Shown one piece after another: positions 14,843 to 19,080 of a stretch of DNA of 33,166 nucleotides. The position numbers were made by a program, and so were the translations under genes. The notes below the pieces were generated by a model. That model had not been told where the DNA came from and searched no databases. It worked only from the letters and a program-made list of their open reading frames with translations. How positions within the stretch are numbered: the first letter of the stretch is position 1; each line of letters starts with the position of its first letter. The stretch comes from an uncultured Lachnospiraceae bacterium (lineage in GTDB: Bacteria > Bacillota > Clostridia > Lachnospirales > Lachnospiraceae). The stretch covers positions 1 through 33,166 of the forward strand of contig CAMWHY010000019.1 of assembly GCA_947174185.1 (NCBI GenBank), given 5' to 3'.

Positions 14843-16267
14843 ATGCTGTTTCCAAGTAATATATTTTTATTTTGTTTTTTGCCCGTCGTGCTTGTTTTAT
14901 ACTATGGCGGCTGTCATGTGCTGCTGAAAAACCACATGGTCGCAAAGAACATTTTATTGCTGATCGCAAGTCTGATATTTTATGCTTATGGGGAAGGATG
15001 GAATCTGATTCTCCTGATTGTCTCTATCGGGATGAATTATGTTTTTGGTCTGTTGTTTGAAAGAAAGACTGATAGTGAACGGGCGGATCATAAAAGCAGT
15101 GGTTTTAGAAGAACCATATTTGTACTGGCGCTTTTGGGAAATCTGGGGATTCTTTTTGTATTTAAATATCTTGATTTCGTAATCGCGAACAGTAACCGTT
15201 TTTTTCATACAAATCTGCCGTTGACAGAGATTGTGCTTCCCATCGGCATTTCCTTTTTTACCTTTCAGGCGCTTTCCTATATTATAGACGTATATCGCGG
15301 TACCGTCCGCGTTCAGCGGGATCCGATCAAGCTGGGACTGTATATTGCACTGTTTCCGCAGCTTGTTGCCGGACCTGTTGTTCGTTATGATGCAATAGAG
15401 AAGCAGATGGTTGATAGGAAGGAATCCTATTCGCTGTTTGGAGAAGGAGTGGTACGTTTTATTGTCGGTCTTGGGAAAAAGGTGCTGCTTGCGGATACAA
15501 TGGCACTGTTTGCGTCGAGGATTTTGACGGAGGTTTCTGGCGGCAGTGCAATCAGCGTTTCGATGGCATGGCTTGGGGCGGTGGCTTATACGCTGCAGAT
15601 CTATTATGATTTTTCAGGATATTCGGATATGGCGATCGGTCTTGGGAAAATGTTTGGATTTACATTTATGGAGAACTTTAACTATCCGTATATCTCAAAA
15701 AGCGTTTCGGAATTTTGGCGCAGGTGGCATATTTCTATTGCTACATGGTTTCGCGATTATGTATATATCCCATTAGGCGGCAATACCCATGACTGGCGTA
15801 CCTACCGGAACATTTTTGTTGTCTGGCTTTTGACCGGCTTGTGGCATGGCGCAGGATGGACGTATATTATGTGGGGAATGTTGTATTTTGTTGTGCTGGT
15901 GGCGGAGCGTCTGACCGGGCTTGGGAGGAGAAGAAAACTTCCGCCGGTGGTTGACCACATCTATACGATGCTGATCGTTATCGTCGGTATGGCGATCTTT
16001 ATGTCGCCGTCATTATCGGTTGCAATGCAGTATTTAAGAAATATGTTTGGAATCGGTGCGGCGGGAGTCGTAGATGCAGTGACGGTATTTTATCTGAAGG
16101 ACAACTGGATCTTCTTTACTCTGGCGGTATTGTTCGTTACACCGATTGGGAAGAAATTGGAAAAGATCTCCTGGTTGTATCAGATCCTTTTGGGATTCAT
16201 TTTACTGCTGTCGATTGTCTATATCCTGAAGGGAAATTATAGTCCGTTTATCTACTTTAGCTTTTGA
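14843..16267 (+). CDS. MBOAT family membrane O-acyltransferase (AlgI/DltB-like)
   Basis: The 474-residue polytopic protein carries the MBOAT hallmarks: IVLPIGISFFTFQALSYIID, YDFSGYSDMAIGLGKMFGF, FWRRWHISIATWFRDYVYIPLGGN and GLWHGAGWTYIMWG. The catalytic-type His is at residue 335. Relatives (AlgI, DltB, PatA) move an acyl group from a cytoplasmic donor across the membrane, where a partner protein places it on a polysaccharide, teichoic acid or peptidoglycan. GGGAGAGA sits before the ATG. The likely partner is the DHHW protein at 16785, as in alginate O-acetylation. The normally tight coupling of such pairs is broken here by 517 bp of repeats. Confidence 0.93.
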   Translation: MLFPSNIFLFCFLPVVLVLYYGGCHVLLKNHMVAKNILLLIASLIFYAYGEGWNLILLIVSIGMNYVFGLLFERKTDSERADHKSSGFRRTIFVLALLGNLGILFVFKYLDFVIANSNRFFHTNLPLTEIVLPIGISFFTFQALSYIIDVYRGTVRVQRDPIKLGLYIALFPQLVAGPVVRYDAIEKQMVDRKESYSLFGEGVVRFIVGLGKKVLLADTMALFASRILTEVSGGSAISVSMAWLGAVAYTLQIYYDFSGYSDMAIGLGKMFGFTFMENFNYPYISKSVSEFWRRWHISIATWFRDYVYIPLGGNTHDWRTYRNIFVVWLLTGLWHGAGWTYIMWGMLYFVVLVAERLTGLGRRRKLPPVVDHIYTMLIVIVGMAIFMSPSLSVAMQYLRNMFGIGAAGVVDAVTVFYLKDNWIFFTLAVLFVTPIGKKLEKISWLYQILLGFILLLSIVYILKGNYSPFIYFSF

Positions 16268-16328
16268 GGCACGGCGGTTGCATTCGGCATATTTAGACAA
16301 TTGCAGGGCTTAGTTTTCTTAATCTTCC

Positions 16329-16470
16329 GTTGCGCAACATAGACAATATCACCGCAGGGCACGCTTCCGCTGCGCACGCTCTGCAGCGGCACTAGGATGC
16401 CAAAGAACGGCATCTAAGTGCCGGCGAGCGTACAAGCACCCTGCTTGTGATATGGTCTATATTGCACAAC
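16329..16470 (+). repeat. 142-nt palindromic structured repeat, copy 1
   Basis: The ends are imperfect terminal inverted repeats of 24 nt: 16329-16352 (starting GTTGCGCAACATAGAC) and 16447-16470 (ending GTCTATATTGCACAAC). Almost the whole element folds on itself. GCAGGG at 16354-16359 pairs with CCCTGC at 16439-16444, ACGCTC at 16376-16381 pairs with GAGCGT at 16426-16431, and an apical hairpin is built from GATGCC and GGCATC around AAAGAAC. A second copy, about nine in ten positions identical and also 142 nt, lies in opposite orientation at 18006-18147. It has no coding capacity. It resembles a non-autonomous mobile palindromic unit (MITE-like). Confidence 0.85.
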
Positions 16471-16583
16471 TGTGTTACTGGAATACTAAAATACAGAAAT
16501 ATATAGTTTGTAGCAATTCCGGATAACAAGTATATCGAATTAATGAAATATAAGATTACTGAAATGCAGGAAACTTGAAGGAG

Positions 16584-16677
16584 GTTTACATAACCTGAAG
16601 TTTGAGCATCTATGTTCCAAAAATGATTTCATTTATGATGTTAGAACATAGATGCTCAAACGAAAAGTTATGTAAGC
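16584..16677. repeat. long intergenic hairpin
   Basis: TTTGAGCATCTATGTTC at 16601-16617 and its exact reverse complement at 16644-16660 give 17 perfect base pairs. The 26-nt loop holds its own small hairpin (AAATGA at 16621-16626, TCATTT at 16629-16634). Outside, TTACATAAC at 16586-16594 and GTTATGTAA at 16667-16675 add nine more pairs across an internal bulge. No T-run follows either arm, so it is not a plain terminator. It ends about 108 bp before the DHHW gene. Possible roles are a leader element, an mRNA barrier or a remnant of an insertion. Confidence 0.7.
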
Positions 16678-16784
16678 CGATCAAAAAGCGTTCAAAAGTA
16701 TTGCTTTAAAGAAACCGGACATCACAAGAGCGATTATAACTTAATTCAACTTTAATATGGCATATTTATGAGAGGATCGAAAAT

Positions 16785-17918
16785 ATGACAGAAAAGAAAA
16801 AATGGCATCTAGGGATACTGATATTTTTCCTGATGGTCATCGTGGTTGGAACAATGCTTAATCTATTGGAGTTTCTTAGGCGTTCCGAACCGGAGGGAAG
16901 GATGCGTGGACTGAATCAGCTGGTTACGGTGGAGGATGCCGCCATCAATGCCTGGGGCGGATTTCAGAGACTGCTTGGAAAACAGGCGGCATATGGTTCC
17001 ACATTTTATGAAGATGTCACTCTTTTGGAGAATGGTTATGCCACAATGGCAGATCGCGATCCAAGCTACGCGGCGGCAGTGGAAGGCGCTGAGGGAGCTT
17101 ATGCTCTGGCACAGGAGATCGGAGCGGAGTTTTTGTATGTACAGACGCCGGCAAAGCAGAGATATGAAGAAGAATTCCCGTCGGGTGTTATCAATTATTC
17201 TATGAGCAAGCATGAAGGCGCAGTCAGCAGTTTAAGACAGGCGGGCGTCCCGCTGATCGATATGCGGGAAGTATTGGAGCAGAGCGGGACAGATTGGTAT
17301 GATTATTTTTATCAGTCAGACCATCACTGGCGGAATAATGCGGCATTTCTTGCATATCAGGAAATCTGCGGCTTTATGGAGGAATGCGGCATGCCCATCA
17401 ATCAGGAATATCTGGAAGAATCACAATATGAGAAGATACTGTATGAAGATGTGTTTTTAGGCACTCATGCCAGAATGGCGGGAACGCTATATGCGGGACT
17501 GGATGATTATGAATTGTGGCTGCCCTTATTTGATACGGCATTTACGCTGGATGTGGCATCTCAGGGGATCCATCTGGAGGGTAACTTTGAGGATTGCTTT
17601 GTTCATTATGAGAATCTGGATCATCCTAGTTTTGATTATTATGCATATTATGCGTATTTAAAAGAGGACTTTGACTGCTTTGAGATCGTCAATCAAAACA
17701 ATCCCGAAGGGGCGCATGTGCTGATTGTCAGGGATTCCAGTGCGGTGCCGGTATCGGTATTTCTGGCAGAACAGTGTTCTGAGCTGGATATTCTGGATCT
17801 CAGATATTCCGGTGATCAGGATATGATCTCGTATATTAGGAAGCAGCAGCCGGATTTGATCTTATATATCTTTGGACCGGGGTATCTTGGCAATGAAGGG
17901 GCGATGATACTAAGATAA
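16785..17918 (+). CDS. DHHW/AlgX-AlgJ-like SGNH acyltransferase partner
   Basis: The 377-residue protein has an N-terminal membrane anchor (about residues 9-27) and an extracellular domain. The domain carries the family-defining SDHHW at 178-182, embedded in WYDYFYQSDHHWRNNAAF, and a second conserved block, VLIVRDSSAVPVSVFLAEQ, near residue 310. In AlgJ/AlgX-type proteins the Asp-His pair of DHHW and a Ser in the other block form the catalytic triad that puts acetyl groups on a polymer. Here SS follows RD, so a nucleophile is available. AGAGGATC lies before ATG 16785. It most likely works with the MBOAT protein upstream. The gene is bracketed by inverted copies of the structured repeat, an unusual setting for it. 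Confidence 0.82.
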   Translation: MTEKKKWHLGILIFFLMVIVVGTMLNLLEFLRRSEPEGRMRGLNQLVTVEDAAINAWGGFQRLLGKQAAYGSTFYEDVTLLENGYATMADRDPSYAAAVEGAEGAYALAQEIGAEFLYVQTPAKQRYEEEFPSGVINYSMSKHEGAVSSLRQAGVPLIDMREVLEQSGTDWYDYFYQSDHHWRNNAAFLAYQEICGFMEECGMPINQEYLEESQYEKILYEDVFLGTHARMAGTLYAGLDDYELWLPLFDTAFTLDVASQGIHLEGNFEDCFVHYENLDHPSFDYYAYYAYLKEDFDCFEIVNQNNPEGAHVLIVRDSSAVPVSVFLAEQCSELDILDLRYSGDQDMISYIRKQQPDLILYIFGPGYLGNEGAMILR

Positions 17919-17920
17919 AT

Positions 17921-17970
17921 GCATACGAATTTGCAAAGGAATATGCAGCTTTGCAGCGAAAATTCGATGC
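17921..17970 (+). repeat. imperfect hairpin directly after the DHHW gene
   Basis: Paired segments are GCAT 17921-17924 with ATGC 17967-17970, CGAATTT 17926-17932 with AAATTCG 17960-17966, and GCAAAG 17933-17938 with CTTTGC 17949-17954. One base is bulged on the left and five on the right. It begins two bases after the stop codon. There is no T-tract behind it, so it may protect the mRNA 3' end rather than terminate. Confidence 0.5.
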
Positions 17971-18005
17971 TGGAAATACTTTCGTCAGCATTTCTCTATA
18001 AATCA

Positions 18006-18147
18006 GTTGTGCAATATAGACAATATCACACGCCGGGTGCTTGTGCACTCGCCGGCACTTAGATGCCGTTCTTTGGCATCTTATGTGCCGTTGCGAAGTG
18101 CACGCAGCGGAAGCGTGCCCGGCGGTGATATGTCTATGTTGCGCAAC
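18006..18147 (-). repeat. 142-nt palindromic structured repeat, copy 2 (inverted)
   Basis: This is the reverse-orientation copy of the element at 16329-16470, of the same length and with the same ends: 18006-18029 begins GTTGTGCAATATAGAC, and 18125-18147 ends GTTGCGCAAC. Where it differs from copy 1 inside stems, both sides of the pair change together. C18034-G18121 replaces A16356-T16442; C18101-G18045 replaces A16376-T16431; T18099-A18047 replaces G16378-C16429. The similarity continues weakly for about 20 bp beyond its right end. It sits 87 bp after the DHHW gene and 81 bp before the phosphoesterase gene. Confidence 0.85.
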
Positions 18148-18151
18148 GGAA

Positions 18152-18181
18152 GTTAGCGAAAATAAAGTTAGCGAAAATAAA
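18152..18181 (+). repeat. 15-bp tandem direct repeat
   Basis: GTTAGCGAAAATAAA occurs twice without a gap (18152-18166 and 18167-18181), followed by GTTTCGC. It abuts the end of structured-repeat copy 2. A degraded single version of the unit can be seen next to copy 1 on the other strand (around 16308-16326). It may mark the border of the element or a slippage event at insertion. The rest of the 310-bp gap 17919-18228 holds only this, the hairpin at 17921 and the repeat copy. Confidence 0.6.
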
Positions 18182-18228
18182 GTTTCGCAGATGCTTAATA
18201 GTGAGATGATATTGTGAGGGGGATTCCG

Positions 18229-19080
18229 ATGACATCCGAAACTGCAAAGAATTTTTTCAGCAGGCGGAAGAAATGGCTTTACTGGGGTGGGATCATTGTG
18301 GCGCTTTTATGCTTCTTCTACTATGAAAACCGCCATCTTGTTGTGACGGAATTTACATATGTCAATGAGTCTGCCGAAAATTTTCCGGACGGATACCGGA
18401 TCGTTCAGATTTCCGATCTGCATAATGCGGTTTTTGGCAGGAATCAACGGGCTCTGATGGATAGAATTACGGAATTGGCACCCGATATGGTTGTAATCAC
18501 AGGAGATATCGTTGACTCGAATCATACGGACATAGATGTGGCGATAGATCTGGTGGTTCAGCTAGTGGGACTGTGCCCCGTATATTACGTAACCGGAAAC
18601 CATGAATACTGGCTGGATGAGGGCGACAGACGGAGGCTGTTTGAGGAAATGGAACAGGCGGGCGCTATCCTCCTGTTTAATGAAGCGGTTACTGTAAACG
18701 CTTCCGGCGGGACATTTGATCTGATCGGATTGGATGACAAGAGTCTTGCCGACGACACGCTTAAGGCACTTTTAAGTGAATGTAACAGTGAAACGCTGAA
18801 TATCGTTCTTGCCCACGAGCCGCAGTACATAGAAAATTACGCTGTGGCAGACGCCGATCTGGTTTTATGCGGACATGCCCACGGCGGTCAGTTTATTTTA
18901 CCGTTGATTGGACCGGTTGTTGCACCGGATCAGGGGTTTTTCCCCCAATATACATCCGGGGCATACCGTATGGAGGATACGACCATGTTTGTCAGTAGAG
19001 GGCTGGGTAACAGCATTATTCCTGTCAGATTGTTTAATGATCCCGAAGTGGTATGCATTGATCTGGCGGCAGGGCATTAG
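18229..19080 (+). CDS. membrane-anchored metallophosphoesterase (YkuE/YaeI-like)
   Basis: From ATG 18229 (AGGGGGA five bases upstream; a GTG at 18214 is inside that site) the protein has 283 residues. One membrane helix at about 16-32 precedes a calcineurin-type phosphoesterase domain. All metal motifs are present: D63-x-H65 in ISDLHN, GDIVD (Asp93), GNHEY (Asn124-His125), AHEPQ (His196) and GHAHGG (His216, His218). Relatives hydrolyse phospho-lipids or phosphodiesters at the membrane. In a polysaccharide locus a role in recycling or trimming lipid-linked phosphates is possible but unproven. The domain probably faces outward, judged from the positively charged N-terminus before the helix. It is separated from the pse operon by a strong promoter. 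Confidence 0.88.
   Translation: MTSETAKNFFSRRKKWLYWGGIIVALLCFFYYENRHLVVTEFTYVNESAENFPDGYRIVQISDLHNAVFGRNQRALMDRITELAPDMVVITGDIVDSNHTDIDVAIDLVVQLVGLCPVYYVTGNHEYWLDEGDRRRLFEEMEQAGAILLFNEAVTVNASGGTFDLIGLDDKSLADDTLKALLSECNSETLNIVLAHEPQYIENYAVADADLVLCGHAHGGQFILPLIGPVVAPDQGFFPQYTSGAYRMEDTTMFVSRGLGNSIIPVRLFNDPEVVCIDLAAGH

Follow-up and report, generated by a model that had tools for sequence, protein, structure and literature searches.

The window analysed here, i.e., the whole stretch of 33,166 nucleotides at positions 1 to 33,166 of contig CAMWHY010000019.1 (assembly GCA_947174185.1, an uncultured Lachnospiraceae bacterium), carries a cell-surface sugar cluster between positions 14843 and 26282, with genes for an MBOAT acyltransferase, an AlgX-like protein, a metallophosphoesterase, NeuB and an acyltransferase. 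This cluster is the setting of two copies of a 142-nt repeat (Table 1). A preliminary description of the window, drawn from its letters, had reported them as inverted copies alike at about nine in ten positions, and they are indeed 90% identical and opposite in orientation. Their favoured (i.e., best-folding) strand runs antisense to both neighbouring genes at copy 1, and sense to the genes on both sides at copy 2. The 24-nt terminal inverted repeats ascribed to each copy do not bound the mobile unit, since further arms, bearing other terminal repeats, extend beyond them.

The arms of both copies are worn. On the far side of copy 1 (16471..16525), a search for the terminal repeat recognised none, and a target duplication is degenerate at copy 2 and not clear at copy 1. 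The downstream arm of copy 2 contains a short tandem duplication (AAAATAAAGTTAGCG). The gene starting beyond this copy encodes the metallophosphoesterase, for which the list of open reading frames gives an upstream GTG at 18214, and the inserted 280 bp of copy 2 hold no ORF of 80 aa or more.

Table 1. Features of the two repeat copies and of the neighbouring hairpin repeat in the window.
Feature	Position	Strand	Remarks
Copy 1, outer arm (35 nt)	16294..16328		degenerate terminal repeat TAGACAATTGCAGGGCT, with 4 mismatches when compared with that of the family
Copy 1, structured core (142 nt)	16329..16470	-	best-folding strand is window minus
Copy 1, other outer arm	16471..16525		decayed end (GTTTGTAGCAATTCCGGATA); boundary set by eye, uncertain
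Hairpin repeat B	16580..16679		separate repeat, AGGTTTACATAAC...GTTATGTAA, 18-bp stem
Copy 2, inserted segment (~280 bp)	17918..18197		missing from three relatives, which show a clean junction
Copy 2, upstream arm	17924..18005		TACGAATTTGCAAAGGA at its start, a weak terminal repeat with 5 mismatches
Copy 2, structured core (142 nt)	18006..18147	+	best-folding strand is window plus
Copy 2, downstream arm	18148..18197		ends in terminal repeat at 18181-18197 (2 mismatches)
Copy 2, target-side flank	18198..18231	+	Shine-Dalgarno-like GTGAGGGGG; ATG 31 bp from the element end

Copies, empty sites and element ends

Searching the bacterium's own genome (G000; 2.96 Mb in 200 contigs) with copy 1 yielded 19 matches, 15 of which were full length (all 142 positions) at 85-100% identity. 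Among 40 genomes searched, own included, the core was present in five (G000, G008, G012, G018 and G022), all of them from one genus represented by 24 genomes (own included). When the flanks of the 15 copies were oriented alike, arms could be followed outside the core for 35 nt on one side and for 35 to ~80 nt on the other, and in the better preserved copies these arms end in TAGGTAATTGCGAAACTC... and ...GTTTCGCAAACGCCTA. Judging from these flanks, the 142-nt segment is the core of a longer MITE with arms ending in TAGGYRWTTGCRAAACT. Outside the ends, 10-12-bp direct repeats were read by eye in several of the better preserved copies, rather than counted over all copies (e.g., TATCTGATTT in L009, TATTGTTAAA in L013 and ATAGAGTCATTA in L148).

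The terminal repeat itself is abundant. With up to two mismatches, TAGGYRWTTGCRAAACT occurred 28+24 times in G000 (6+3 for a reversed control) and 63+66 times in G022 (8+7 for the control), while, of the 299 family genomes searched, 37 contained the exact repeat, with 4 control matches in the same table. Copy numbers for G022 are underestimates, since its assembly (seen, for instance, at L137, L139 and L152) has runs of N inside many MITEs and contigs that begin at MITE ends. Grouping 46 copies by flank similarity gave 35 clusters, a low estimate because the neighbouring B repeat inflated the clustering, and most sites differ between sister species. Matches not spanning the core nearly end to end, a short variant (L176) and nine copies of the A2 subfamily were dropped before the counts on 37 copies reported below. 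Copies of the A2 (L170) and A1 (L052) subfamilies lie upstream of the same dnaK-like gene (by eye), at nearly the same position in two species, and are possibly independent insertions at one target.

The site of copy 2 was uninterrupted in three of four relatives, reading ...ACTAAGATAGTGAGATGATATTTGGAG... in G018 (L221) and in G008 (UBA7481; L222), and the same with two substitutions in G012 (L223); in the window, the ~280 bp are inserted between ACTAAGATA and ATAGTGAGATG. In the fourth relative, UBA7480 (L224), what remains at this site is rearranged: positions 1225-1900 of L224 comprise only the 3′ part of the element, followed by ~500 bp of extra DNA with a short ORF and then by shared sequence. 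Copy 1 is present in the sister genomes, with internally deleted forms in G012 and G008. The possibility that the two inverted copies enclose an invertible segment was rejected, as the three sister contigs follow the order of the window throughout (plus-strand matches only) and simply lack copy 2.

One copy of the separate hairpin repeat B (in L147) sits between the same outer terminal repeats, TAGG...TTGCGAAAC. Among 20 copies of B, many double changes by transversion and few intermediates were seen, a pattern suggesting that arm-to-arm correction likely acts on this repeat. Correction of one palindrome arm from the other had been proposed earlier for the 142-nt repeat; it is probably at work in neighbouring B, but is not needed for the core.

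A proposed helper IS and the insertion sites

An IS bounded by the same two ends as the MITE, including the asymmetry between left and right (TAGGTAA / TAGGCGT), occurs in other genera of the family, and in genome G126 it is 1745 bp long. It contains one open frame of 505 residues and is flanked by the duplication AATTCTATATTG; the IS copy examined in full (by eye) is devoid of the core. Its transposase matches DUF772 (5.6e-14) and reaches 21.2 bits against DDE_Tnp_1, just under the 23-bit cut-off. Against the IS1182 model (NCBIfam NF033551) it scores 7.5e-22 and 77.9 bits, which is far below the curated cut-off of 270, so that it is termed IS1182-like only. Of 13 IS loci tried, L215 lacked the pair of ends (its IS copy being the one in L208), and perfect 11-12-bp duplications were present at 5 of the 12 IS copies with such a pair. 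In L208 (G126 C6), the IS1182-like IS is interrupted by a mobile gene, the product of which resembles, by eye, an rve-type (IS481/ISNCY-like) transposase.

Relatives of the transposase (E ≤1e-40) were found in 27 of the 299 family genomes, and terminal repeat and transposase occurred together in 11 genomes versus 3.3 expected (Fisher p 7.7e-5). The transposase query P0001 had no match in the draft assembly of G000; among the 24 same-genus genomes (own included, all drafts), only G010 matched it, with two matches at 30-35% identity. Since no helper-type transposase was found there in these draft assemblies, the MITE appears to be orphaned in G000. As other candidate helpers, the DDE_Tnp_1 (IS4-type) transposases of G022 and G008 were rejected, given that a matching pair of ends was found in 0 of 8 loci within the stretch examined, and so was a 2.4-kb end pair in G008 C45, the frames of which resemble ordinary genes (by eye).

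The element thus displays what is expected of a MITE, i.e., ends shared with an IS, target duplications, multiple copies, polymorphic sites and no transposase of its own. The idea of a non-autonomous mobile unit, one of two put forward in the preliminary description, is borne out by the 15 dispersed copies, the empty sites, the target duplications in the better preserved copies and the IS with the same ends. A transposase of the IS1182-like kind would have moved the MITE in trans.

For ISs and MITEs alike, the ends also show a peak ~30 bp ahead of start codons. Among 163 distinct element ends, 91 had an outward start codon preceded by a Shine-Dalgarno sequence within 250 bp, and for 71 this codon lay at 20-37 bp, compared with 3.2% of 20,000 positions drawn at random from these loci; in these counts ends were merged only where their 60-nt flanks were identical, with the result that some orthologous sites are counted repeatedly, and the loci are a non-random sample. 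Of the ends facing a start codon before any gene end, 66/76 did so at 17-37 bp. Measured from the element end, the Shine-Dalgarno sequence begins at 16.3 ± 3.1 bp and the start codon at 29.8 ± 3.7 bp (72 ends within 15-40 bp). The IS copies behave alike, 9 of the 12 with a pair of ends having a start at 26-33 bp. Copy 2 of the window fits this spacing (31 bp), while a search at copy 1 for a start codon with Shine-Dalgarno sequence at such a distance found none. A preference for AT-rich DNA alone was rejected as the cause, since 121 other genes show an even AT content in their upstream DNA (0.58-0.63 at distances of 11 bp and more). The spacing reflects either target choice or very strong selection; in the former case, the transposase would choose sites just upstream of Shine-Dalgarno sequences.

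Fold and distribution of the core

Both copies fold over nearly their whole length, as had been claimed, and do so unequally on the two strands. For copy 1, the window minus strand reaches -90.3 kcal/mol (z -11.7, 100 shuffles) versus -73.2 for the opposite strand, and for copy 2, the window plus strand reaches -93.2 kcal/mol (z -11.1) versus -80.0. In both copies the favoured strand reads GTTGTGCAATA...GTTGCGCAAC, and the consensus fold energy is -86.6 on this strand versus -59.5 on the other. The predicted fold comprises a long stem, a three-way junction, a hairpin with a GNRA tetraloop, a CUUAG/CUUAUGU internal loop and a U-rich apical loop.

Within the home genus, 37 copies (35 distinct) have 98.9% of their cells paired, and 13 of 57 pairs are changed on both sides, a number reached in 0 of 500 shuffles (identical rows were removed before pairs were counted). 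Chance can be excluded for the repeats because of the 15 full-length copies and these double-changed pairs. The three double changes in stems noticed between the two window copies correspond to alignment pairs 30:118, 41:98 and 43:96, each of which is compensated in the family. A lack of further copies, or copies with uncompensated arms, had been named as evidence against a conserved structure; further copies exist, and their arms are compensated.

Moreover, the mismatches point to one strand, though modestly so when the home genus is taken alone. When the home-genus structure was chosen with G-T and A-C scored alike, 158 cells were G-T versus 30 A-C. Counted by column, mismatches shared by at least two copies were G-T in 11 cases versus A-C in 1, and singletons 10 versus 8 (p 0.049). 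Single changes in the home genus thus look unbiased, while shared changes look mostly G-T.

Among the 299 family genomes, own included, a covariance model built from 37 copies matched in 84, corresponding to 84 of 298 sampled genera, with at most 10 candidates per genome scored and matches being full length among the matches listed. Across the class, a second covariance model (E ≤1e-6) gave matches in 11 of 391 genomes, each of which belongs to this family. Judging by listing order, the family accounts for ~16 of the 391, and 0 of the ~375 others matched, a result suggesting that hairpins as such do not trigger the model, although such strict filters lose weak matches.

In a cross-genus set of 47 copies (44 distinct, four home-genus rows), 93.8% of the cells are paired, and 56 of the 57 pairs are compensated among the 44 distinct copies (0 of 500 shuffles), in an alignment fitted to the model; alignments A3 and A4 were both fitted to the model structure, which favours that structure. 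A set of 74 distinct copies (71 from other genera and three from the home genus) has a GNRA tetraloop in 73, with counts of GAAA 26, GAGA 22, GGAA 8, GCAA 7, GGGA 7 and GCGA 3, and AAAA in the remaining one. The internal and apical loops are conserved in this set too. After removal of three G-T-rich columns, its mismatches on one strand comprise 123 G-T versus 41 A-C (p 1e-10), a G-T count somewhat inflated by the model having been fitted on the same strand, which affects the unpaired GNRA loop less; other mismatches account for 263 cells. By these features the core looks like a structured RNA and not just like a DNA palindrome.

The frame around the core varies. In several genera the core is framed on both sides, at ~32-37 nt, by TAGGYRWTTGCRAAACT, and elsewhere by TAGCYATGAGCAAAAC (L267), AAAATCAGGGACAAAAGC (L318) or GTGTTTTGGxGATGAAAGG (L326 and L327). 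Flanking inverted repeats exceeded the 99% control in 10 of the 74 copies and were weak or undetected by this test in the others, the decayed window copy included; copies with undetectable ends may be old or differently bounded. An identity with integron attC sites was rejected, as the core ends vary between genera and do not follow the attC R-box order.

No Rfam 15 family matched over the core at gathering score, in the window or at 20 loci from other genera. At E values up to 1, one sub-threshold miRNA model fell over a core, with an E of 0.95 (chance level). A TwoAYGGAY RNA (RF01731, 102.5 bits) is present at positions 1167-1330 of L268, outside the core and ~170 bp from a core copy.

Interpretation and comparison with known systems

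We consider it probable that the repeat is a MITE with a structured-RNA core, the fold of which is conserved on one strand, moved by an IS1182-like helper and with ends close to start codons. The second idea of the preliminary description, a transcribed structure, is indirectly supported by the GNRA loop, the excess of G-T over A-C on one strand and the covariation across genera. The core would act as an RNA transcribed along with the leaders and operon spacers in which it lies, and its compact fold could close off the inserted DNA while leaving the nearby ribosome-binding site free. Insertion would then cost the host little, and the element could persist.

We favour a role of this kind for the RNA, in which insertion near a ribosome-binding site becomes tolerable, but about this role in particular we are rather doubtful. 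Similarly speculative is a wider scheme, in which a selfish, family-wide superfamily would share this RNA heart, selected because it helps the element itself to spread, combine it with several ends and helpers, target sites upstream of Shine-Dalgarno sequences and keep the invaded gene translated through its RNA. In the home genus, the favoured strand was sense to the gene whose start it faces in 24 copies and antisense in 8 (p 0.007; 32 of 46 copies assigned), or 22 versus 8 when shared sites had been removed by eye (p 0.016). In other genera this bias was absent, a hand count giving 9 sense versus 9 antisense within 100 bp (13 versus 9 when the four home-genus rows among the 47 rows are included). 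The selfish-RNA reading is weakened because the sense bias disappears there.

The matched arms might instead reflect DNA only, i.e., a long palindrome in which replication or repair uses one arm as the template for the other, with no function as RNA. The pattern in the 18-bp stem of the 20 B copies is as expected from arm-to-arm correction, and the outer stem of the core carries all four Watson-Crick types at most of its pairs across genera. Arm copying is strand-blind, however, yet a GNRA loop is found in 73/74 copies and G-T exceeds A-C on one strand, and the internal and apical loops are conserved though pairing cannot correct loops; we regard this explanation as improbable. A strand-specific fold would also suit a structure in single-stranded DNA, where the folded strand serves as substrate for a recombinase, replication protein or transposase (as in attC or REP-like systems), and GCGAAAGC-type hairpins are very stable in DNA too. 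Double-stranded transposition is indicated instead by the terminal repeats, the duplications of 10-12 bp and the DDE transposase, the fully examined IS copy does without the core, and a role of this kind seems very unlikely to us.

The location upstream of start codons and the home-genus sense bias could be taken to favour a host cis-regulatory RNA (a riboswitch or attenuator) that owes its spread to mobile elements and its present retention to the regulation of neighbouring genes. Against this stand the genes at the two window sites, which are mutually unrelated by Pfam, the distribution of 46 copies over 35 flank clusters and the many antisense copies, and we deem it very unlikely as well. 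Under the preferred reading of a mobile MITE with an RNA core, the tight Shine-Dalgarno spacing suggests a bacterial transposase with unusual target choice.

MITEs are usually seen as degenerate leftovers of ISs, the folds of which follow from their palindromy. Here, the RNA probably does something, because an RNA-like fold occurs in 84 of 298 sampled genera of a major gut family, and its description would fill a gap for annotators and in Rfam, where this common family is missing. The core resembles the structured RNAs of Rfam in its conserved fold and covariation, with no Rfam 15 family lying over it. REP and REPIN sequences are dispersed palindromic elements that rely on a Y1 transposase located elsewhere; the present element differs from them in its DDE-type ends, its target duplications and its much greater length.

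In the titles and abstract openings of literature on Lachnospiraceae MITEs and structured RNA, IS1182, Shine-Dalgarno insertion and compensatory repeats, the element was not described. Likeness of the helper to the IS1182 family rests on the match of its transposase to the family model (7.5e-22), on DUF772 and on the sub-threshold DDE_Tnp_1 match. For IS1272, a member of this family, parts of the published account state that it makes no target duplications and replaces inverted repeats (PMC5678879); unlike IS1272 as portrayed in those parts, the IS found here has 11-12-bp duplications and adjoins Shine-Dalgarno sequences.

BOX, RUP and SPRITE of Streptococcus pneumoniae are, according to parts of their description (PMC3049150), small non-autonomous elements with terminal repeats and folded transcripts, thought to be moved in trans by ISs, and the QMITE2 paper states in general terms, in the portion considered, that MITE transcripts fold (PMC10969869). 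The element described here is like these in being small and non-autonomous, with terminal repeats and a strong predicted fold. Compared with what those parts of both papers convey, it is unlike them in having one fold with a GNRA loop and a three-way junction in 84 of 298 sampled genera of a family, with ends that vary and that peak ~30 bp before starts. The nearest described kind is that of the structured pneumococcal MITEs for the element and the IS1182 family for its helper.
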